NCBI GenBank assembly: GCA_905480575.1
Contig: CAJQQZ010000110.1
Span: 1 to 64,000, forward strand
Direction: 5' to 3'
Origin: an uncultured Alphaproteobacteria bacterium
GTDB lineage: Bacteria; Pseudomonadota; Alphaproteobacteria; UBA7985; CAJQQZ01
DNA: 64,000 nucleotides
Part shown: positions 4,247-15,936 of the stretch, in pieces
Layout: every line of letters begins with the position of its first letter
How positions within the stretch are numbered: position 1 is the first letter of the stretch
Program-made: the position numbers and the translations under genes
The notes under the pieces: model-generated
Seen by the model: the letters and a program-made list of their open reading frames with translations, nothing else
Told to the model about the DNA's origin: nothing
Databases searched by the model: none

Positions 4247-5773
4247 TTAAGCGAAGTTCTTCGCGAAGTCAGCGAGCAAGCCTTTCAAAGCTTCTTCACT
4301 GTCTGCGCTCAGCTCTTTGCTGCTCTGGATTGTGGCCAAAACGCTAGCGCCTTTGTCACGCATCATTGCAAGCAAACCGCTCTCGAAGCGACCAACATCA
4401 GCAACAGGAACATTATCAACATAACCACGTGTACCGGCATAGATAACAGCAACCTGTTCAGCCACAGTCAATGGGCTATACTGCGCTTGCTTCAAAAGCT
4501 CAGTCAAACGAGCACCCCGTGCAAGCAAGGCCTGAGTAGAAGCATCAAGGTCAGATGCGAACTGTGCGAAAGCTTCCATTTCGCGGAACTGAGCCAGTTC
4601 AAGCTTAATAGAACCAGCAACTTTCTTCATTGCTTTTGTCTGAGCGGCAGAACCAACACGAGACACTGACAAACCAACGTTCACAGCAGGGCGAACACCC
4701 TTATAGAACAGACCTGTCTCTAGGAAGATCTGACCATCTGTAATCGAAATCACGTTTGTCGGAATGTAAGCGGACACGTCGTTCGCCTGAGTTTCAATAA
4801 CAGGCAGAGCTGTCAATGAACCAGAACCCATTGCGTCTGACATTTTCGCCGCACGCTCGAGAAGACGAGAGTGAATGTAGAAAACGTCACCAGGATAAGC
4901 TTCACGGCCTGGTGGGCGACGAAGAAGAAGTGACATTTGACGATAAGCAACAGCCTGCTTGGACAAATCATCAAAAATGATAAGAGCGTGGCGACCGTTA
5001 TCACGGAAGTGCTCGCCCATCGCAGAGCCTGTGTAAGGTGCAAGGAACTGAAGAGGAGCAGCATCAGATGCAGTTGCAGCAACAACAGTTGTGTACTCCA
5101 TTGCGCCGTTTTCTTCGAGTGTCTTAACGATCTGAGCAACCGTAGAACGCTTCTGACCGATAGCAACGTAGATACAGTGAAGCTTCTCACTGTCGTTGTT
5201 CTCAGCAAAGGCTGTCTTCTGGTTAAGGATCGCATCAATCGCAACAGCAGTCTTACCAGTTTGGCGGTCACCAATGATAAGTTCGCGCTGACCACGACCG
5301 ATTGGAATCAATGTGTCAATTGACTTGAGACCAGTTTGAACGGGCTCGTGAACTGACTGACGTGGGATAATGCCAGGGGCTTTAACTTCAGCGCGCTTAC
5401 GCTCGCCATCGATTGGGCCCTTGCCGTCGATTGGATTACCAAGCGCGTCAACAACGCGGCCCAGCAAACCATCACCAACAGGAACGTCCACAATCGCGCC
5501 TGTACGCTTGACTGTGTCGCCTTCCTTAATGCCACTATCGCTACCAAAGATAACGACACCAACATTGTCAGTTTCGAGGTTCAGCGCCATTCCCTTAACA
5601 CCGCCAGGGAATTCAACCATTTCACCGGCTTGAACTGAGTCGAGGCCATAAACGCGGGCAACACCATCACCAACGGATAGAACCTGTCCAACTTCAGCCA
5701 CATCGGCTTCAGAACCAAAATTTTCGATTTGTTGCTTGAGAATCGAGGAGATCTCAGCGGCGCGGATTTCCAT
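4247..5773 (-). CDS. atpA: F1 ATP synthase alpha subunit
   Basis: This is the non-catalytic nucleotide-binding subunit of the F1 head. The P-loop GDRQTGKT is at residues 168-175, and the alpha-type segment [20 protein letters not shown] is present. I take the ATG at 5773, which overlaps the atpH stop by one base (TGATG), giving 508 residues and suggesting translational coupling. A GTG one codon earlier would add a single residue. The C-terminal helical region is complete ([13 protein letters not shown]). Confidence 0.96.
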
Positions 5774-6333
5774 CACGCAACCCCTTTCATTGCAAATTTC
5801 AGCTTTTGTAGCTTGGTACGAAGAGAGCTATCGACCATGCGAGAGCCCACGCGAACGATTAGACCGCCCAGGATAGACGGATCAACCTGCATTTCCAAAT
5901 TAACATCGGAACCGTAGGATTTCTTGAGCGTTGCCATCAAAGCTTCTTCTTGCTTCTTTGTCAGCGCTTTTGCGGCCGTGACGTTTGCCGTCATTTCACC
6001 GCGACGACGAGCAAGCTCATCTTGGAAAACTTTGATCATAGTAGGCAGAACGGCGAGGCGTGCGTTGCTAGCGACCACTGAAACAAACTGAGCGGTGAGA
6101 CCACCAATCTTAGCTTTCTTCAGGATCGCTGCCATGGCTTTGCCTTGGTCTTCGCTGTTGATAACCGGAGAAGCGATCATTCGGCGAAGATCGTCAGAAC
6201 CATCCAACAGATCTTTGATATTTTCAAGATCGCTTGCAACTGCATCCAGATTGCTCTGCCCGTCTGCGAGCTCAAGCAAAGCTGCTGCATATCGTTCGGC
6301 GAGGTTTTCAGAACCTTTGTTGTCAGCCGCCAC
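5773..6333 (-). CDS. atpH: F1 ATP synthase delta subunit
   Basis: The 186-residue delta subunit (OSCP homologue) links the F1 head to the peripheral stalk. The N-terminal helical bundle begins [13 protein letters not shown]. The C-terminal half carries [21 protein letters not shown], the conserved delta signature. The start is GTG with GAGGG about eight bases upstream. It is the first gene of the operon. The F0 genes (atpB/E/F) are not here, which is normal in alphaproteobacteria. The 226-base region upstream holds a CCCCA/TGGGG hairpin (6383-6403), but I see no convincing promoter. Confidence 0.93.
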
Positions 6334-6559
6334 TTGCGTTAGCCCTCAATCTTATTACACAGAACCTTAGACAGACTAAAGGCCCCAAACCAGAAGGCTG
6401 GGGACAGCGTGATGAAGAATCATCACTAGCGCCTGTCTTAATATGGGCGCTTAGCTATCATGGAGTGTTTTGCATTTCAAGCAGGTGGTCGGAGATTCCG
6501 CCGAAAACTGTGAAGCCATGATGCCGCACCTATTTCATAATGCCAAACTCTGCCGAATT

Positions 6560-7744
6560 TCATTCAATTGAAACGTAATCTAAAACGCGTTGTTGAAAAA
6601 AGTCCAAAGCCGTCTCTCCGCCTGAACCTTTTGCCAGAAATTCGACCGAATGATGTGACGATTGAAGAGCTCTTTGCATCTTCTCACAAACCCAAACATC
6701 TTCGGTTTGGAAATCACCTGTCTCTAGGGGATGGACCTTCCAATGGGAGGATTTAATCAGGCCGCTTTCTTTGTCATAACCCGGTGCATCCTTGGTGCGA
6801 ACCTTATATGACAGCCATCCTTTTGGAGCCCAATTTCGAACCCGCATCAAAATTTTGTTCGCATTGACGGGTTCGATGATCGAAGTAGAGAAGCCCCAAG
6901 GGTTAGGCGTAATCAAAGTATTGGGGAAGATCGCATAGACACCACCATAGCCTGGCTCTTCTGCATCCTTTACAGTCGTTGCCCCTTTGGAGGCCTTCTC
7001 AACGAACTGTGGGATGCGGTGTTTCACCCCTTCGCGTTCTGTCGACCACCAAACCAGGTGACGGCCAAAAGGTTCCCAGACATTCTTATCGTGAAGAGGC
7101 CCGCCCAAAGTCTCCTTATGAAGATAGGCAAGATGATAGCCATCCAAACCATTTTCCATGAAGACTTTCCAGTTGCAGTTAATCTCGTAGACGAACTCCT
7201 CTGATTCTTCGAGGTCTTCGCTCAGCAAATTATGAGGCCAGGCAACAGAGTCCAAGCCACCCAACCAATCTTCAAATCTTTCTTCAGGTTTCTCCGACGG
7301 GTTCACAAAGACTAGATTGTGAAAAATTCCGATCGAAGCCGGGATCAGGTTGACACCCTTCTTGTCCAAGTCAGGAAAGCAAGCTTTAGCCGCAGGAAGC
7401 CCACGCAAACCGCCATCCAAATTGTAAACCCAATTGTGGTAGGGACACATAATGAAACGCCCGGTATTGCCGCGGCCTTCCAAAAGCTCCGTGCCGCGAT
7501 GTCGGCAGATGTTGTGGAAAGTTTTGAGCTGCCCATCCCCATCCTTAATAACAATCAGCGAATCATTCCCGATTTGTAAAGTTTTGTAGTCGCCGCTTTC
7601 TCTAAAGTCTGAAACGACGCCAGCTAAAGCCCAGTTTTTTGAAAAGAGCTCTTTCTTTTCACGTTCAAACCACTGTTCAGAAACATAGGCTTCTCTTTGC
7701 AACCGCTGAATGGGGCTCTCAGAAATCTCACAATTTTTTGTCAT
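6560..7744 (-). CDS. Rieske non-heme iron oxygenase, alpha subunit
   Basis: The 394-residue protein has an N-terminal Rieske [2Fe-2S] domain (CRHRG at 80-84, CPYHNW at 100-105). A C-terminal catalytic domain has the mononuclear iron motif D201-x2-H204-x4-H209; a third ligand may lie in QTEDVWVCEKMQ near residue 350. The family includes aromatic-ring dioxygenases and demethylases/hydroxylases acting on quaternary amines; the substrate cannot be read from sequence. No ferredoxin reductase or beta subunit lies next to it, so the electron-transfer partner must be encoded elsewhere. It is transcribed away from the small membrane-protein/TetR cassette, with which it shares a 102-base intergenic region. 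Confidence 0.85.
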   Translation of the reverse strand: MTKNCEISESPIQRLQREAYVSEQWFEREKKELFSKNWALAGVVSDFRESGDYKTLQIGNDSLIVIKDGDGQLKTFHNICRHRGTELLEGRGNTGRFIMCPYHNWVYNLDGGLRGLPAAKACFPDLDKKGVNLIPASIGIFHNLVFVNPSEKPEERFEDWLGGLDSVAWPHNLLSEDLEESEEFVYEINCNWKVFMENGLDGYHLAYLHKETLGGPLHDKNVWEPFGRHLVWWSTEREGVKHRIPQFVEKASKGATTVKDAEEPGYGGVYAIFPNTLITPNPWGFSTSIIEPVNANKILMRVRNWAPKGWLSYKVRTKDAPGYDKESGLIKSSHWKVHPLETGDFQTEDVWVCEKMQRALQSSHHSVEFLAKGSGGETALDFFQQRVLDYVSIE

Positions 7745-7778
7745 CTAACTATTCCCGTCTATGATTCTTCACATCATA

Positions 7779-7791
7779 AATAATCATTATT
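7779..7791. promoter_or_regulatory. Palindromic operator candidate
   Basis: AATAAT-C-ATTATT is a perfect 13-base inverted repeat. It overlaps the -35 element of the rightward promoter in the region shared by the Rieske oxygenase gene and the TetR-encoding cassette, a typical place for a TetR-family repressor site. That TetR binds here is inference. Confidence 0.4.
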
Positions 7792-7818
7792 GACAATTTA
7801 TCAAAGACTTTGTTTAAT
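7790..7818 (+). promoter_or_regulatory. Sigma70-type promoter of the TetR cassette
   Basis: A perfect -35 TTGACA (7790-7795) and -10 TTTAAT (7813-7818) are separated by 17 bases. Transcription would start near 7825, about 20 bases before the first gene at 7847. Confidence 0.6.
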
Positions 7819-7846
7819 CTTTTCGAACGAATGAAAGTATTCCGCG

Positions 7847-8140
7847 ATGGCAACCCCGCCAAGAAAGCAAAAGTCCAACTTGTTAAAAAGTTTTGAGAGC
7901 CAGAAATGGGTCACTTTGATAGCACTCCCCATATTGGTAATTGCCACAGTCAATTCGATCTATTGGATCTGGGGGCTTCTCTTTGTTTTTTGGGGCCTAC
8001 AATCGATTTCAAACCGGCAGGTTTTCCTTCTTGAAGAAATCCACCGAGATGAAGATCCGGTACTCTATTGGTTGATTACCGCGTTGTGGATAGGATCCGG
8101 ACTTCTTTATCTGCAAGCCAGTTTCCTTCTTACGCTATGA
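7847..8140 (+). CDS. Small membrane protein of unknown function
   Basis: The 97-residue protein has a basic N-terminus (PPRKQKSNLLKS). Three hydrophobic stretches follow: about 21-38, 40-53 (rich in W, G and F) and 73-96, the last two separated by the acidic loop LLEEIHRDEDP. I do not recognise a named family. It starts the cassette that continues with a DUF2141 protein and a TetR regulator, and its TGA overlaps the next gene's ATG (ATGA), which suggests coupled translation. A role in the envelope is likely, but nothing more can be said. Confidence 0.65.
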   Translation: MATPPRKQKSNLLKSFESQKWVTLIALPILVIATVNSIYWIWGLLFVFWGLQSISNRQVFLLEEIHRDEDPVLYWLITALWIGSGLLYLQASFLLTL

Positions 8141-8607
8141 TAATAAACTTGAGTCGGAAGGCTGTTTCAAATCTGTTGGCTCTCTTTAGCCTGTTCCTCG
8201 CACTTGTTTACATTTACGGGGCTGGATTGGTTTGGGGGCAAACACTGCTCGTTGAAGTAAAGGGAATCAGGACAGATAATGGGTTAGTCTATGTGACGAT
8301 TTATGACGACCCAAAGGCTTTCGAAACAAGCTCCACGACGTCGTACGTCACCTACACTGCGAAGGAAGCAACCGGAAACCCTGTCATTTTTACGTTCAAT
8401 AGGCTGCACGGCGGACCTTTTGCCCTTTCTATCTTCCATGACGAAAACTCGAACGGTATCTTCGACCTTGTAGATCAGCTTCCCAGAGAGGGGTGGGGCT
8501 ATTCTAACAATGTTGGTGCTGATTCTTATCCTTGTTTTCGAGATGCTTCCTTTTCAATGGATGACGAGGACTCTAATATGACGATACAGATGAATTATGC
8601 GAATTAG
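8137..8607 (+). CDS. DUF2141-family exported protein
   Basis: The 156-residue protein starts at the ATG overlapping the upstream stop; the open frame reaches back to 8068 but would then lie inside the previous gene. An N-terminal hydrophobic signal or anchor (about residues 8-33) is followed by a beta-rich domain with LLVEVKGIRTDNGLVYVTIY, FALSIFHDENSNGIFD and GWGYSNN, the pattern of DUF2141. Members are usually periplasmic and of unknown role. HDENSNGIFD resembles a calcium-loop-like segment. The next gene (TetR) starts two bases after its stop. Confidence 0.75.
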   Translation: MIINLSRKAVSNLLALFSLFLALVYIYGAGLVWGQTLLVEVKGIRTDNGLVYVTIYDDPKAFETSSTTSYVTYTAKEATGNPVIFTFNRLHGGPFALSIFHDENSNGIFDLVDQLPREGWGYSNNVGADSYPCFRDASFSMDDEDSNMTIQMNYAN

Positions 8608-8609
8608 CG

Positions 8610-9191
8610 ATGCCCAGACCAAGCCTGAAATCCGTCAGAACTGCCGAATTACTGGAAGCCTTTGAACGCTGCGTGGCGCGTTATGGACTGGACGGATCAA
8701 CATTGGAAAGAATTTCTGAGGAAGCGCACGTCGGCCGCCCTCTCCTGCGCCACTATCTGGGTAACAGAGACCAAATGGTCTCCGCTCTTTTGCAACATAT
8801 TCTCGCGAAATTTGATGACTTGAATGAAGCGCTCGTTGCTGAATTGCCAACAGTTGGGCGCTTTGAGGCTCTCCTGGATCGGCTTTTTAATGACCCTCTT
8901 CACGACGCGAACAACGCTGCTGTTTTCCAAGCGCTCGTTGCATCCTCGAACCGTTATGAAGGCATGGCAGAAAAACTCATGCGGTTTGTGACGAATTTCG
9001 AAGAAATACTCGCGAAAGAGCTGTCTTTGTGGGCACCTGAAGCCAGTCTGCCCGATTGCCAGGTCGCAGCCAGCGGAATTGCGGCTATCTATTTCAGCGT
9101 GGACGGCCTCGCACCTCTCACGCCACCTCGAAGCTGGAAGAACAATCAACGGCAGGCTGTTCAGTGGCTGCTTGATCGCCTTAAATCCTAA
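8610..9191 (+). CDS. TetR/AcrR-family transcriptional regulator
   Basis: The 193-residue protein has an N-terminal TetR helix-turn-helix (about residues 10-58: AFERCVARYGLDGSTLERIS, then GRPLLRHYLGNRDQMVSAL) and an all-helical ligand domain. It starts two bases after the DUF2141 gene and is therefore in the same operon. It may repress its own promoter and the divergent Rieske gene through the AATAATCATTATT palindrome at 7779-7791; this is inferred from position only. The ligand is unknown. Confidence 0.87.
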   Translation: MPRPSLKSVRTAELLEAFERCVARYGLDGSTLERISEEAHVGRPLLRHYLGNRDQMVSALLQHILAKFDDLNEALVAELPTVGRFEALLDRLFNDPLHDANNAAVFQALVASSNRYEGMAEKLMRFVTNFEEILAKELSLWAPEASLPDCQVAASGIAAIYFSVDGLAPLTPPRSWKNNQRQAVQWLLDRLKS

Positions 9192-9207
9192 TCAAGCAGA
9201 TTCACCG

Positions 9208-9235
9208 TTGATCCAGGCGCGACTCCCTTTATAGT
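9208..9235 (+). promoter_or_regulatory. Possible promoter of mutL
   Basis: TTGATC (9208-9213) and TATAGT (9230-9235) are 16 bases apart. The start of transcription would fall near 9242, only a few bases before the mutL ATG, and no Shine-Dalgarno sequence is visible there. This would make the mRNA nearly leaderless. Confidence 0.35.
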
Positions 9236-9244
9236 CTTTCGACT

Positions 9245-11164
9245 ATGTCAAAGCATCCTCATATCCAAGCTAATATTCGCAGGCTTCCCGCCAACCTCGT
9301 TAACCAGATCGCCGCCGGTGAGGTGGTCGAACGACCAGCTGCTGCTGTCAAAGAACTGGTTGAAAACGCTATCGACGCAGGCGCGGACCAAATTGACGTT
9401 ACCTTGAGAGAGGGTGGCAAGAGCCTGATTTCCGTTGTCGACAACGGCCATGGCATGAGTCCAGACGATCTGTTACTGGCCGTCGAACGTCATGCGACCT
9501 CGAAATTGCCTGATGATAATTTGGTTTCCATCAACTACCTGGGTTTCCGGGGTGAGGCTTTGCCCTCAATCGGTTCCGTCAGCCGCCTCGAGATCACCAG
9601 CAGACAAGCGGATAGCGACACAGCTTGGCGAATCTTTGTCGAAGGCGGTGACGTAAAAGAACCCACGCCCTCGTCAGGACAAAAAGGAACGCGCGTTGAT
9701 GTCCGCGACCTCTTTTTTGCAACCCCTGCCCGACTGAAGTTCATGAAATCGACGAGGTCAGAGACCACAGCCGTGCTCGATACCATGACACGTTTGGCGA
9801 TGGCCAATCCCGAAGTTGGATTCAGTTTGAGCGATGGCGCCAAGACCTTGTTGTCTGTACCGCCCGGCGCCTCGGGCCGAGAACAAGGTGATCTCTTTGC
9901 CACGCTGTTATATCGCCTCGGGCGGTTAATGGGCAAGTCTTTTGCCGACAATGCGGTCAAAGTCGACCTTGCTCGCGAAGGCGCGCGTGTCACAGGCTTT
10001 GTCGGGCTACCAACCCTCAACAAAGCCAACTCTCTGTCGCAGTACCTCTTCGTCAATGGCCGCCCGGTCAAAGATAAGATGCTGTACGGTGTGGTTCGGG
10101 GTGCTTATCGGGACTTCCTGGCCTCAGATCGCTTCCCGATGTTGGCTCTCTTCCTCACGCTGCCGCCGCATGATGTTGACGTCAATGTCCACCCCGCCAA
10201 GACGGAAGTGCGTTTTAGGGACGTTCAGGAAATGCGCTCGCTGGCGATCAACTCGATTCGCCAAGCCTTATCGGGCAGTGCGGGGCAGCAAACCTCCTCA
10301 ACCATAGCTGATGCAACCCTCAGAGCCTTTGAGAACGAACCGCAAAGACCCGCGCATTTTAACTATCAGCAGTCTTATGCACCGACGGCTGTGCCGCGTG
10401 GTCTCTCAGAGCAATCTTTTGCCTACCAAGCCCCGAACCCCGGCCATATTCAATCCTCCTTTGGTTCGCTCGGCCAAGCCTCACCCAGAACAGCCGATCA
10501 CCAAACATCCTACACTGGGTTTTCCGATGCCCCTGCCGGCCGTGTTGAAGGCGACGAAGCAGCAGCGAGGGAAAACTTTGACGCCTTTCCACTGGGTGCT
10601 GCCCGGGCACAGCTGCACGAGAACTACATCGTCGCCCAAACCAGCGAAGGCATCGCCATCGTCGATCAACACGCCGCGCACGAGCGTATTGTCTATGAGC
10701 AAATGAAGGCCGACCTCACCGACAGAGGTGTTGCGCGCCAAGGCTTGCTCATTCCTGAAATCATCGATCTCGGCGATCCAGCGGCTGAGACCTTGCTGGC
10801 CAGAGCAGAAGAACTGGAAAAGTTTGGGCTTGTTCTGGAATCTTTTGGGCCCGGGGTTGTTGCGGTCCGCGAAGCACCCGCGATCCTTGGCCAAGGCAAT
10901 ATCGAAAAACTGGTGCGCGATTTAAGTGATGAACTGGCGGAATGGGATCAGTCCCAAACCCTGATCGAGCGCATTCACGAAGTCTGCGCGACCATGGCCT
11001 GCCACGGCTCCGTCCGATCCGGCCGCCGCCTCAACGGCACCGAAATGAACGCCCTGCTCCGCCAGATTGAAAACACCCCCAACACCGGACAATGCAATCA
11101 TGGCCGTCCTACTTACGTGACGCTGAGCCTGAAAGACGTAGAACGGTTGTTTGGACGGCGTTAA
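9245..11164 (+). CDS. mutL: DNA mismatch repair protein MutL (endonuclease type)
   Basis: The 639-residue protein couples mismatch recognition by MutS to strand removal. The N-terminal GHKL ATPase is intact: LPANLVNQIAAGEVVERP, ELVENAIDAGA, DNGHGM, GFRGEAL. After a Q/S/P-rich linker (about 345-445), the C-terminal dimerisation domain has DQHAAHERIVYE near 473, fitting the DQHA-x2-E-x4-E metal-binding motif, plus ACHGSVRSG near 584 and CNHGRP near 617. These are features of nicking MutL proteins in bacteria without MutH. The start ATG has no clear ribosome-binding site. mutS lies 16 kb downstream in the window. Confidence 0.96.
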   Translation: MSKHPHIQANIRRLPANLVNQIAAGEVVERPAAAVKELVENAIDAGADQIDVTLREGGKSLISVVDNGHGMSPDDLLLAVERHATSKLPDDNLVSINYLGFRGEALPSIGSVSRLEITSRQADSDTAWRIFVEGGDVKEPTPSSGQKGTRVDVRDLFFATPARLKFMKSTRSETTAVLDTMTRLAMANPEVGFSLSDGAKTLLSVPPGASGREQGDLFATLLYRLGRLMGKSFADNAVKVDLAREGARVTGFVGLPTLNKANSLSQYLFVNGRPVKDKMLYGVVRGAYRDFLASDRFPMLALFLTLPPHDVDVNVHPAKTEVRFRDVQEMRSLAINSIRQALSGSAGQQTSSTIADATLRAFENEPQRPAHFNYQQSYAPTAVPRGLSEQSFAYQAPNPGHIQSSFGSLGQASPRTADHQTSYTGFSDAPAGRVEGDEAAARENFDAFPLGAARAQLHENYIVAQTSEGIAIVDQHAAHERIVYEQMKADLTDRGVARQGLLIPEIIDLGDPAAETLLARAEELEKFGLVLESFGPGVVAVREAPAILGQGNIEKLVRDLSDELAEWDQSQTLIERIHEVCATMACHGSVRSGRRLNGTEMNALLRQIENTPNTGQCNHGRPTYVTLSLKDVERLFGRR

Positions 11165-11469
11165 GCAAACGGCTTTATTGCACTTAAAATTCTTGTAAAT
11201 ATTTTCCTGCTATCTAATAGTGTGATTCCTGACGTAACGCGAATTTGGGACAAAGAAAAACTGCTGAGCCACAGATCCCGCATTCGCATTACGGCAAGAA
11301 ACATCGCCGTCGAGCCCTCCTTCGCAATGAAGATGAGAGATCGACCGGTGGCAAAAGGGTGAGCGAGGAAAAACACAGAAGTGGAAAGTCGCAAAGACAG
11401 CACTCACGTTGATGAAGCACCCAAACCTGGGTTAAGGGCTGTGGGGCTGGCTTCCCGGCGCTGCCGCTG
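11165..11469. other. 305-base intergenic region before the KAP gene
   Basis: No RNA gene, terminator or convincing promoter was seen. Its right end holds a short open stretch from GTG 11381 ([20 protein letters not shown]) in a frame different from the KAP NTPase gene. It reads like an N-terminal tail and ends at TGA shortly after 11470, which could indicate a frameshift at the 5' end of the KAP gene. Confidence 0.4.
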
Positions 11470-13968
11470 TTGATGGTGGCCGTGCCGCTGATCCTGCTTT
11501 TGGCGCTCTACACCGCTTTCATCCAACCCCTCAACAGCGCCAGCAAAGACGCCAGCTGGCTCAGCCAAGATTTCTGGACCCAACCAAAACAAAGCGACGG
11601 CACACTTTCGAAGGCGCTTGGTTTTTCAACGCCGTTCGCAGCCCAAGAGCAAGACTTTGGCGCTTTCCATCCTGGGCCAGTCAATGCCGTGGATTTTTCA
11701 CCAAACGGCGATCTGATCGCATCCGGCGGAGCAGATGGCAGAGTTCGCCTCTGGGATCTCCAAGGCAAGCAGATCGCCGCCATGGAGGGCCATTCTGGTA
11801 GGGTCTTGTCCGTGGCCTTTTCGCCAGATGGCAAGACCCTCGCATCGGGAGCGGCTTATGACCTGATCCGGCTTTGGGAATTGAAACCTGACCAAAGCTA
11901 CCTGCCCGCACTCTGGACCCTTGTGGCTGTGGTGCTGGCTTTTGCTTTGCTGGCCTTTTGCTTTTGGTTTTACGGCAAATCCTACAGGCGGGCGACAAGA
12001 AAACTCAGAGAGGAACGATGGTCAGGGAAACCAGTGGTTCGCCATGCTGTCGAAACTTTCCTGGAAAGCGACGGTCCTTTGACCGATCCGCGAATGGCGG
12101 GTGTGTCGCTTAATGCCTTGGTTGAACGGCTGGCCAAATTCCTCACTAACAAAAACACCTCCCTGCTCCTGACCATCGCGCTCACTGGCGAATGGGGCAC
12201 TGGCAAATCGTCGGTTATGAATTTGCTGCGCCAGAAACTGCTCGACGACAACAATCCCACCGTTTGGTTCAACGCCTGGCACCATCAAAGTGAGGACCAT
12301 CTCTTTGCTTCACTGATGGAACAAATCCGCCGCGATGCCATGCCCTCCCCATGGAAAAAAACCTTCTACGACCGAGAAAACCTCCAGGTTAGAGGCCGCC
12401 TCATCCGCAGCAGACTTGTTGAACGCCCTCTGCGTTATTTCCTGTCTTTTTTGTTGCTAGCTTTTTTGATTGCCTTGGTGGTTTTTCAGTTTGCCAACGG
12501 CCACATGGAAGTTGACGGCAGTAATGGTGTGCGCCACTTCCTGGAAACCGCCGCTAAACCCGGCGGCATCTTGGTTTCTCTCTTAATTGCTTTCTTCACC
12601 GCGCGTGACTTGTTGAAGCTTTTCAAAATCAGCCCCGCTGAATTGATCAAAGCCGAGAAGGGCTTGTTCTCAACCTCTCGTTTCGTCGACAAGCTCAGCT
12701 TCCGTCACCGCTTCGCCGCCGCCTTCCAAGAGGTCAGTCGCGCCTTTGGCAACAAACGACTGACGATCTTGATTGACGACCTTGACCGTTGCCAGCCCGA
12801 GCATGTCTCTGAGGTTTTAGAGGCGATCAATTTCCTGTCCTCCAGCGGCGACTGCTTTTTTGTCCTCGGCATTGCCGAAACACCGGTTAAGTACGCCGTT
12901 GGGCTCAGTTTTAAGGACATCGCCTATGAGCGTGCTTTGGAATGCGCCCGAACACGACAAACCACCCAGGACGAAAACTCAAAAGTCGACATCTCCAAAA
13001 CCGACGAATTCGAAGCCCGCCAGTCCTACGCCACCGACTATCTGGAAAAGCTGATCAACCTTCGCATCCCCGTACCGCCCTTTGATACTCAAGCTTTGGG
13101 CGAAATACTGAACAACAACGGTGCCGACAAACTCTCACCCACCGAAGAACAAACAAAATCGTCGTGGAGAACCCGAGTACTCCTCTTGCTGTCATTGCTT
13201 CTGCCCACCGCTGCTATGGTTTTCTTTGCCCACATGGTCCAGGGCTTGTTCATGAAAAAAGAAGAGCCGAATTCCAAGGCTAATGAGAAACCTAAAGAAG
13301 GTGACAAGCCTTCGGACGAGGGAAACCTGAACGACGGCACCACTGTTGGCGGCAATGGAGAGACGGGCGTCGCAGGACCAGTGGAAGCGACACCAGCCCC
13401 GACGGACGCTGGCCAAAACCCCGACCAGCTTGATTTGGCTGATCCCAACCGGCTCGACGGCAATGTCGCGCCAGCTCCTGAAAGCTTCGATCTACTCAAC
13501 TACACCGCACCCGCCGCTCTGGCGGTTCTGGCGCTCGCCCTCCTCACCTTGCTTGACCCCAAAATTTGGCGCAAAGTTAAGGACTGGGCCAGAGAAAGCG
13601 AAACAAGAGAAGACAGCCTCGCGTTCACTGAGGCCATGAAGAAACACCTGCCGCTCGTACTCAAAGAAAAGCAGTCGCCCCGGGCCGTGAAACGGTTCAT
13701 CAACCGCATGCGCTACCTGACTGGCGATATGGAGCAGAGAGGCTCAGGCTCGATGGACAAGCTGGTTTTGCTTGGAGCCCTGGATGAGTTGGGCAAAATC
13801 GACATCAGTCAACCGACCTGGTCAGGCGCATTAGCAGCCGACATAAGATTGGAGCAGTTAGGCCTGTCACTGGATGAACATTCTGTCAGTAACGAAGAAT
13901 GGGAAGCCTATCGACAACTCGCAAGCTCGGTCCGTTTCTCAGCCAGCCCTGAAGAAAAAGGCCGATGA
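11470..13968 (+). CDS. Membrane-anchored WD40-KAP P-loop NTPase
   Basis: The 832-residue protein combines parts rarely seen together. It has an N-terminal membrane helix (about 3-20), two WD40 repeats (about 67-143: [30 protein letters not shown], then [27 protein letters not shown]) and a second membrane helix (about 150-172). The KAP NTPase domain follows with Walker [10 protein letters not shown] at 240-248 and Walker [11 protein letters not shown] at about 430-439. Inserted in it are a pair of membrane helices (about 322-342 and 365-383), as is typical for KAP proteins. Two more helices (about 570-592, 675-697) flank an acidic, Pro/Gly-rich linker. The end of the domain has [20 protein letters not shown] proteins include the phage-exclusion protein PifA; a defence or membrane-scaffold role is inference. 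The start is TTG 11470 or ATG 11473, both without a ribosome-binding site. Its TGA directly abuts the stop of the opposing gene. Confidence 0.85.
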
Positions 13969-14472
13969 TTAACGACCCGGTGCCGCGGGCAGATCATTGT
14001 CCAATGCCGTGCTGAGATTCATCATGTTGTTGTAGGTCATGATGCCGATCATCAGCGGAATTTCGATGATCTCCGCTTCGCCGTAACCTGCCGCCTTTAG
14101 GTCCTCGAGATCTTGGTCACTAACGTGGCCCTTTTTTTCTAGAAGCAAGCGCGTATAGGTGAGGAGAGTTTGCATTTTCGGGTCACTGCTTTCGCCTTTT
14201 CTGGCGGCGGCCAAGGCTTCAGCATCAAGCCCGGCCTGCTTACCCAACCCAGCGTGCGCCGAAAGGCAGTAATCACAGCCGTTGTATTCACTCACCAACA
14301 TAGCAATGGCTTCTCGCTCAGCGGCGGTCAAAGTCATCAAGGCTTGGATCTTTTTGCTCTCACCAAAGAAAGCTTCAGTCGCTTTTGAATTCTGGATGAG
14401 GCGGAAGAAATTGAGCTTCATCCCTTTCATGGGGCCATCGGTCGCGACTGGCGGTAACTCAACTCTGCTCAT
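13969..14472 (-). CDS. AhpD-like carboxymuconolactone decarboxylase family protein
   Basis: The 167-residue all-helical protein has the redox motif C-x2-C-x3-H in EYNGCDYCLSAHAGLGKQAG, typical of AhpD-type peroxidase-related proteins. EREAIAMLVSEYNGC and EIIEIPLMIGIMTYNNMMN also fit the family. It probably reduces peroxides or acts in thiol redox balance; the partner is unknown. It is the last gene of the minus-strand run rluB-rsmD-this gene, two bases after rsmD. The stop codons of this gene and the convergent KAP NTPase gene touch, with no terminator between. Confidence 0.82.
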   Translation of the reverse strand: MSRVELPPVATDGPMKGMKLNFFRLIQNSKATEAFFGESKKIQALMTLTAAEREAIAMLVSEYNGCDYCLSAHAGLGKQAGLDAEALAAARKGESSDPKMQTLLTYTRLLLEKKGHVSDQDLEDLKAAGYGEAEIIEIPLMIGIMTYNNMMNLSTALDNDLPAAPGR

Positions 14473-14474
14473 GG

Positions 14475-15035
14475 CTACATTCCTTGGTATCGAAGAAAAT
14501 GGAAGGCTATTCGCCCAATTGATTTCTCTTTTAACAACTCAAACTGATCGGGGAAAACATTCTGTTCTTTGACGTCAGCCTCTGCCACTATCAGGGCACC
14601 CGGTTTCAACCAGCCTTGGGCAACCAACGAACTAAGAGCTTTTGGGAGAAAGCCCTGACCAAATGGCGGATCAAGAAAGACCAAATCATGCTGGGTTTTA
14701 GCCTTTGGTAAGGCCGTTGCGTCGGCCTCCACAACTCGGCATTCAGATTGCAGCTTTGACGCTCGAACGTGGAGCACCAATGTTTTTGGTGATTGTTCGA
14801 CGAAAGTAACACTGTTGGCTCCTCTGGACAGAGCCTCCAGCCCCAAAGCCCCCGTGCCTGCAAAGACATCAACAACCCGCGCGCCATGTATGGGTGATAA
14901 ACCGCCCTCACCCCAACCGGAGTGTGCCAAGATGTTGAACAGCGTTTCCCGCGCACGATCTAGTGTCGGGCGAACATCCTGTCCAACCGGTGCCTCAAGT
15001 TTTAGGCCGCGAAGTTTTCCGCCAACTATTCGCAC
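14475..15035 (-). CDS. rsmD: 16S rRNA (guanine(966)-N2)-methyltransferase RsmD
   Basis: This SAM-dependent enzyme methylates G966 of 16S rRNA in the small subunit. The SAM site VVDVFAGTGALGLEALSRGA and the catalytic DLVFLDPPFGQGF are clear; the N-terminus MRIVGGKLRGLKL and RPTLDRARETLFNIL are typical. I choose GTG 15035 (186 residues), with AAGGGG seven bases upstream, rather than the longer open frame to 15119 that runs deep inside rluB. This still overlaps the rluB 3' end by 41 bases, a normal arrangement for this pair. Confidence 0.92.
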   Translation of the reverse strand: MRIVGGKLRGLKLEAPVGQDVRPTLDRARETLFNILAHSGWGEGGLSPIHGARVVDVFAGTGALGLEALSRGANSVTFVEQSPKTLVLHVRASKLQSECRVVEADATALPKAKTQHDLVFLDPPFGQGFLPKALSSLVAQGWLKPGALIVAEADVKEQNVFPDQFELLKEKSIGRIAFHFLRYQGM

Positions 15036-15936
15036 TGCTGTGCCCCTTCTTGACGTTACTGGTGGCACCAGGCTTGCCTGTTTTAGCTCGGCTATCGCGC
15101 GAATCACTATTGGCGGCATCTGCGTCGCGAACCCTGGGCCTTGGTTTCTGTTTCGGCTTGATGAACTTGCGCTTTGGTTTCGCCCAGGATTCTTTGGGTT
15201 TTAGACCAACACCCGCTGCCGCAAAAAGCTGCTGCTGTGTGACTTCGACCAACCCGCCCTTAGGGATAGCCCCCAAAGAAAAGTCACCATAGACCTGACG
15301 GATCAGGCGGTTAACCTGCAAGCCAAGATGTCCACAAACATTGCGGATTTCGCGGTTTTTACCCTCAGTCAGCGTGAAGATCAGCCAAGAGTTTGCGCCG
15401 GTTTGTTTTTGAATGAAAGCTTCGATCGGACCATAGCGAACACCCTCGACAGTCACGCCTTTCTTGAGGCTCGCTAATGCCGCCTCAGATACGCGCCCGT
15501 GAACACGAACGCGGTAGCGGCGCTTTTGGCCGTTCTGGGGCAGCTCCAATTGCCGCTTCAGCTCACCGTCGTTGGTCAACAACAGCAGGCCTTCGGAATT
15601 GATATCCAGCCGCCCAACAGGCATCACACGCGGCATGTCCCTCGGCAAAACATCATAGATTGTCTCTCGACCCTCGGGGTCTCTTGCCGTCGTCAGAACA
15701 CCGACGGGCTTGTGGAAACGCCACACTCTGACGAGGTCGCGCGCAGGCAAAGGCTTACCATCGACAACAACAGAGTGGTCATCGGATACCGCAAGCGCCG
15801 GGCTAAGCAACGTTTCACCGTTGACCTGAACACGGCCTTCTTCGATCCAGCGTTCTGCCTCGCGGCGGGAACAAAGCCCGGCGCGAGCCATCACCTTGGC
15901 GATACGTTCACCCTTACTGGATTGTTCTTCTGTCAT
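14995..15936 (-). CDS. rluB: Pseudouridine synthase, RluB/RsuA family
   Basis: The 313-residue protein has an N-terminal S4 RNA-binding domain (about 9-60: RIAKVMARAGLCSRREAERW) and a catalytic domain with the aspartate D111 in VGRLDINSEGLLLLTNDG. It isomerises a uridine of large-subunit rRNA, most likely U2605 of 23S rRNA if RluB. The C-terminal 70 residues are very basic (KPKRKFIKPKQKPRPRVR and beyond), a common extension that probably binds RNA. Its ATG overlaps the stop of the DUF3253 gene by one base (TGATG), so the two are likely coupled. Confidence 0.88.
   Translation of the reverse strand: MTEEQSSKGERIAKVMARAGLCSRREAERWIEEGRVQVNGETLLSPALAVSDDHSVVVDGKPLPARDLVRVWRFHKPVGVLTTARDPEGRETIYDVLPRDMPRVMPVGRLDINSEGLLLLTNDGELKRQLELPQNGQKRRYRVRVHGRVSEAALASLKKGVTVEGVRYGPIEAFIQKQTGANSWLIFTLTEGKNREIRNVCGHLGLQVNRLIRQVYGDFSLGAIPKGGLVEVTQQQLFAAAGVGLKPKESWAKPKRKFIKPKQKPRPRVRDADAANSDSRDSRAKTGKPGATSNVKKGHSSANSWRKTSRPKT

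Follow-up and report, generated by a model that had tools for sequence, protein, structure and literature searches.

A WD40–KAP membrane NTPase with two predicted blades per chain, and a family of ecto-propeller KAP proteins around it

The window, i.e., the whole stretch of DNA analyzed here, spans 64,000 nucleotides of an uncultured alphaproteobacterial genome. Positions 11,470–13,968 of its forward strand hold a single open reading frame (ORF) of 832 amino acids without an internal stop, terminated at 13,966–13,968 and with an uncertain start codon, which encodes a WD40–KAP membrane NTPase. KAP P-loop NTPases (PF07693) include Kidins220/ARMS and PifA, and their founding paper reportedly appeared in Genome Biology in 2004. 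In Pfam, the protein matches KAP_NTPase with 102.4 bits (cut-off 20; E = 3.6e-29) and WD40 (PF00400) in two stretches with 71.2 bits (cut-off 27; E = 6.3e-20), while PF14870 (YCF48) is absent among the best 25 of its 42 Pfam matches. No other KAP gene was found in the same genome.

The protein is built in the order TM1, two WD40 repeats, TM2, and KAP P-loop NTPase, with exactly six hydrophobic segments in a hydropathy scan. TM1 (residues 1–19; positions 11,470–11,526), whose N-terminus is predicted to lie inside, is followed by WD40 repeat 1 (residues 67–107; 11,668–11,790; model strands 71–76, 82–87, 91–96, and 101–106), repeat 2 (residues 108 to ~142; 11,791–11,895), and TM2 (residues 147–165; 11,908–11,964). 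Both WD40 units, 41% identical to each other, thus sit in the ~127–128 residues between TM1 and TM2 (residues 20–146), giving two blades per chain, below the four or more that we took as the test of a closed propeller. The Walker A motif GEWGTGKSS (residues 240–248; 12,187–12,213) and the Walker B motif ILIDDLDRC (residues 433–441; 12,766–12,792) include columns invariant in an alignment of 27 rows. Two transmembrane hairpins belong to the KAP part, one within the NTPase domain between Walker A and B (TM3, residues 324–342, 12,439–12,495; TM4, residues 367–385, 12,568–12,624), the other after Walker B (TM5, residues 570–588, 13,177–13,233; TM6, residues 675–693, 13,492–13,548). Near the C-terminus lies a conserved SPRAVKRF motif (13,675–13,698), in which the proline and the first and second arginines are invariant in the 27 rows. 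All 32 columns invariant over these rows are present in the window protein, including W-G-x-G-K-x-S, FNAWHxQ, DDxDRC, and PRxxxRxxNxxR. In the membrane subset of KAP NTPases, transmembrane helices interrupt the stretch between Walker A and Walker B. The window protein shares this arrangement and differs from KAP NTPases in adding an N-terminal TM–WD40–TM receptor part and a second, C-terminal hairpin. A preliminary description of the locus had proposed a KAP P-loop NTPase with about six membrane helices and two WD40 repeats between the first two; this architecture is borne out, with a Pfam assignment for each domain, two of the helices being placed between Walker A and B and two after them.

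Membrane topology was assigned using the positive-inside rule. Basic residues are found next to those TM ends that are predicted to lie inside, and the 15 residues after TM2 contain six K/R and no D/E. TM2 therefore most likely ends inside, which would place the WD40 part outside the membrane. The 5′ end of the gene is less clear. The listed start (TTG/ATG at 11,470/11,473) falls inside TM1, which begins at residue 1, and by eye the TTG lacks a clear ribosome site. An in-frame GTG at 11,359 is cut off from the ORF by two consecutive TGA codons at 11,410–11,415. Between 11,359 and 11,470, another frame encodes a basic stretch of 18 residues, of a kind that would fit where TM1 ends on the inside. 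The gene start may be misplaced, or there may be a frameshift at the 5′ end.

The gene lies between mutL (9245–11,164, forward strand) and a carboxymuconolactone-decarboxylase-like (CMD) gene (13,969–14,472, reverse strand) that abuts its 3′ end, followed by an rsmD-like gene (14,475–15,119, reverse strand; named by eye). Four relatives of the same order have contigs that cover the site, and in all four mutL abuts rsmD; the two genes are convergent and no more than ~60 bases apart, as inferred from matches, with the rsmD match in one of them (L062) ending 57 residues short of the end of rsmD. The congener G001 keeps CMD, rsmD, and rluB in the same order as the window, at 83%, 70%, and 78% identity, respectively. 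The segment from 11,165 to 13,968 is lineage-specific: it was not found at the same place in the congener, where the KAP gene is missing and other DNA follows mutL, in an assembly that is 84% complete and splits the site over two non-overlapping contigs. At the place of the KAP gene, the congener (L156, 1–275) has a different ORF with a lysine-rich C-terminus that ends beside CMD, so variable cargo may have a hot spot between mutL and CMD. In family f3, rsmD was not found near mutL in the stretches fetched (L060 and L061), and the mutL neighborhood differs there.

A profile search of 11 genomes of the order returned only the window's own genome; the family was not found in any of the 10 relatives, six of which are 63–86% complete. 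At E = 1e-30, the family was matched in one of 398 genomes drawn from the phylum, the window's own, and in three of 385 genomes of the class, two at more than 500 bits and one (G209) with a weaker, partial match; only two of the 385 fall below E = 1e-100. Base composition gives weak support to acquisition. The GC3 of the KAP gene, 0.624, is the highest of 34 window genes measured (CMD, 0.623; mutL, 0.603; mean 0.514, s.d. 0.044, over 20 genes of at least 350 codons), and its codon distance ranks fourth among those 20. Apparently, one lineage gained the gene between two housekeeping genes. This agrees with the suggestion in the preliminary description that the gene was acquired, and universal presence at mutL in all relatives, which it had named as contrary evidence, is not what the 10 relatives show. 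Its picture of a gene standing alone among housekeeping genes holds as regards defense neighbors, which are missing, but not literally, with the CMD-like gene directly at the 3′ end.

What that description overlooked is the family of the protein, in which a full propeller is the usual ectodomain. A scan of a genome collection of 84,980 species produced 403 pattern matches. From the 176 relatives obtained, 80 were kept, and 30 of these were read (L087, a twin of L086, was omitted). Six of the 80 served as an outgroup, and L092 is both one of these six and one of the 30 read. For the tree, L080, L084, and L099 were dropped, L092 was moved to the outgroup, and six of 12 outgroup candidates gave a usable frame. 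In the resulting 33-row tree, the window protein and 26 other propeller–KAP rows form one group (support 100/100) against six other KAP proteins. Members share the layout TM1–ectodomain–TM2–KAP, and most carry one or two complete propellers between TM1 and TM2, mainly of the YCF48/BNR type. At least two copies of a DGGxxW-type repeat motif precede Walker A in 26 of the 30 rows read, the exceptions being L066 (a WD40 protein), L076, L085, and L092. The two helices that precede Walker A could be recognized in 17 of the 30 rows, spaced by 307–436 residues in six and 579–721 in eleven, which we read as one or two propellers; the ~127-residue window ectodomain is shorter than the minimum among these 17. 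Pfam searches of seven members detected PF14870 in four and WD40 in one, while the remaining two matched neither model (L076 and L085; their YCF48 label in the tree means only "not WD40", as neither has PF14870 at 1e-5).

Individual members illustrate the ectodomain diversity. As modeled, the ectodomain of L071 is a propeller with a helix on either side (pLDDT 88.7, pTM 0.83), with seven blades when strands are counted by hand, and its best PDB matches are YCF48 with D1 peptide. In L090 (5955–10,097; also L042), YCF48-type repeats are combined with an OmpA-type domain (E = 8.4e-14 in Pfam), which supports a periplasmic location. The full-length homologue L042, from another alphaproteobacterium, lies on the contig of L090, judging from length and coordinates. 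Between its TM1 and TM2 is an extended ectodomain, and its KAP part aligns from end to end, at 32% identity; just upstream of the KAP gene, at 11,368–12,147 of L042, lies a gene that looks FecR-like when judged by eye. Acidicapsa dinghuensis has two family members (L083 and L081) with ectodomains of very different lengths, and the ectodomain of a Bradyrhizobium ivorense member (L076, 4388–7711) matches no Pfam family at 1e-5. YCF48-type proteins such as L071, L086, and L090 thus share domain order and KAP clade with the window protein and differ from it in carrying one or two full YCF48/BNR-type propellers instead of two WD40 blades.

The only other WD40 member found is L066, an alphaproteobacterial homologue with four blades of 17–67% pairwise identity. 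Its pairing with the window protein has support of 100/98, the two share 34% identity across 552 columns, and the first blades of both begin with HPGPV; the 5′ end of L066 lies at a contig edge, and no TM1 is present in any of three frames. By sequence, the two form a supported sub-branch with what appears to be a short WD40-type propeller. The branch setting the other members apart from this pair is weak (69/31), so a replacement of YCF48-type repeats by WD40 and an early split are both possible. Elsewhere in the family, blades are near-identical: L077 has ~14 YCF48-type repeats in one gene (5730–10,445), and 13 units compared have a median identity of 79% (protein) and 85% (nucleotide), with a nucleotide maximum of 98%. 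Near-identical blades in L077 and several relatives point to ongoing or very recent amplification, a process described for propellers generally (PMC6805158).

An AlphaFold model of the window protein has a mean pLDDT of 70.4 and a pTM of 0.62, with a well-modeled KAP core in which many ten-residue blocks exceed 90. Six strands form in the WD40 region (residues 71–127), so a missing WD40 fold, the other contrary outcome raised in the preliminary description, is not what the model gives; the last strand of blade 2 is unformed in this monomer (pLDDT ~43). In Foldseek, the WD40 part matches the WRAP and PkwA propellers, as well as 6r5x_B, a chain of a two-blade tetramer, with an rmsd of 1.1 and 51% identity over 53 columns (E = 2.1e-3). 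No solved KAP structure was matched by sequence in a profile search at E = 0.01. By structure, the NTPase part resembles RdrA (Z = 14.8, rmsd 4.8, 257 residues aligned, 12% identity), the next non-RdrA row being a WD40 row at 10.0. RdrA is the ring-forming protein of the RADAR defense system, and its rings are heptameric. A ring-forming KAP protein is therefore possible. We know of no TM helices or propeller in RdrA, unlike the window protein.

The preliminary description also placed the gene in a defense-type setting, which the neighborhoods do not bear out. Among the 59 other ORFs of the window's 60, only DrmA (two members) and mad2 (one member) models were matched at 1e-10. We surveyed up to three ORFs on each side of 26 family loci (137 ORFs, 135 scanned after two longer than 1050 residues were dropped); no neighbor family recurred (the top family has five of the 135 proteins) and PADLOC matches were scattered only. 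Defense-island association was rejected on these grounds. Carriage by mobile elements was likewise rejected: there were no relatives in 50,697 phage records, 12 plasmid matches that are all weak (four annotated as QatA), and four weak loci in IMG/VR. QatA has the partners qatB, qatC, and qatD, none of which lies beside the KAP gene among the 59 ORFs scanned, and identity with QatA itself was dismissed at 96.7 bits against the 600 required by the NCBIfam equivalog. The PADLOC PifA model, which has no curated cut-off, gave 58.8 bits with its best stretch limited to residues 198–288. None of the 10 PADLOC matches of the window protein is a Tmn-named model. Tmn is described as a membrane KAP-family defense NTPase with two TM helices and an unexplored mechanism (PMC11846954). 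Like the window protein, it is a KAP NTPase in the membrane; the passages describing it mention no ectodomain propeller. Among the papers searched, one, on DGR targets (PMC10907252), names both KAP NTPase and WD40, and none was found to join KAP with Ycf48 or a propeller.

How might such a protein work? It is very probably an NTPase with an outer propeller receptor. The WD40 ectodomain would be held by TM1 and TM2 on the outer side of the inner membrane, with TM2 leading into a cytoplasmic KAP ATPase anchored by the two further hairpins. In this protein, a two-blade WD40 unit would be either a substitute for the usual YCF48-type propeller of the family or a shortened version of the ectodomain, and this unit most likely pairs with those of neighboring copies into a closed ring; that the unit self-associates is, in our judgment, an evenly balanced proposition. 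A precedent exists in designed WD40 fragments (6R5X and 6R5Y), in which two-blade chains, in both sets reported, assembled as tetramers and four-blade chains as dimers, both giving eight-bladed rings (PMC6805158). These fragments resemble the window protein and L066 in having two or four blades per chain, a suggestive match in numbers for two proteins only. The favored count would be four copies and eight blades. RdrA heptamers are a poor fit to four copies, and seven times two, i.e., 14 blades, is a further possible count. Two observations weaken self-closure: the last strand of blade 2 is unformed in the monomer model, and the repeats of this natural, membrane-tethered protein are 41% identical, whereas the engineered, soluble tetramers have identical blades. 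When a ligand binds or the ring closes on the outer side, the KAP domains would come together and ATP turnover would follow, a coupling from the ectodomain via TM2 that we infer, and the inserted hairpins would then move, disturbing the membrane or a membrane complex. Membrane disturbance as the output, and phage or another envelope attack as the trigger, are guesses. Overall, we read the protein as a membrane receptor NTPase that stands alone, was acquired horizontally, and completes its half-built propeller by associating with further copies of itself, a reading that we offer tentatively, at slightly less than even confidence.

The chances of a defense or conflict role seem to us about equal either way. 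Tmn is an example of a membrane KAP protein that acts in defense (PMC11846954). Phage defense by the window protein is plausible, although scattered PADLOC matches and the lack of a recurrent family at the 26 loci leave it without neighbor support. The same missing neighbors, at these loci and in the window, would suit a protein of envelope quality control with no part in defense, whose ectodomain binds exported or unfolded segments while the KAP ATPase remodels inner-membrane complexes. PF14870 as the commonest Pfam ectodomain and the match of L071 to YCF48 with the D1 peptide, which YCF48 binds, speak for such a function. We consider it rather unlikely, as a patchy spread, absence from close relatives, and blade amplification are ill-suited to a housekeeping chaperone.

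The two blades themselves could be read differently. They may be a reduced sensor, a monomeric stub or one that pairs with another protein, that builds no propeller by itself, in keeping with an ectodomain far below the family spacing of 307–721 residues and with the unfinished blade 2 of the monomer model. The tetramers formed by both sets of two-blade fragments (PMC6805158) and the four blades of L066, also a divisor of eight, make this unlikely. It is more doubtful still that the protein has, or recently had, a full propeller, with blades lost by decay or collapsed as identical copies in a short-read assembly. Relatives do contain blades similar enough for an assembler to collapse (L077), and the two TGA codons that separate the start from a possible upstream start at 11,359 would fit this reading. 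On the other hand, the 41% identity of the blades that remain would require a collapse that erased other, identical ones without trace, and 832 codons are open with every conserved ATPase position kept.

The boldest reading is that of a natural split-propeller receptor, in which four membrane-tethered copies with two blades each would make an eight-bladed ring on the outer side, closure would itself be the switch that assembles the KAP NTPase on the inner side, and the sister protein L066 would do likewise with two copies of four blades. This is a long shot, but, if true, blade number would set receptor stoichiometry within a family that otherwise carries complete propellers. The chief new finding is the family of ecto-propeller KAP proteins around the window protein. 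KAP NTPases include defense proteins of unknown trigger and mechanism, such as Tmn (PMC11846954), and this family joins a recognizable outer-side receptor domain and an NTPase in one chain, which offers a way into the question of how KAP proteins are switched. Its two- and four-blade WD40 forms offer a natural test of partial-propeller self-assembly, so far backed by designed fragments.
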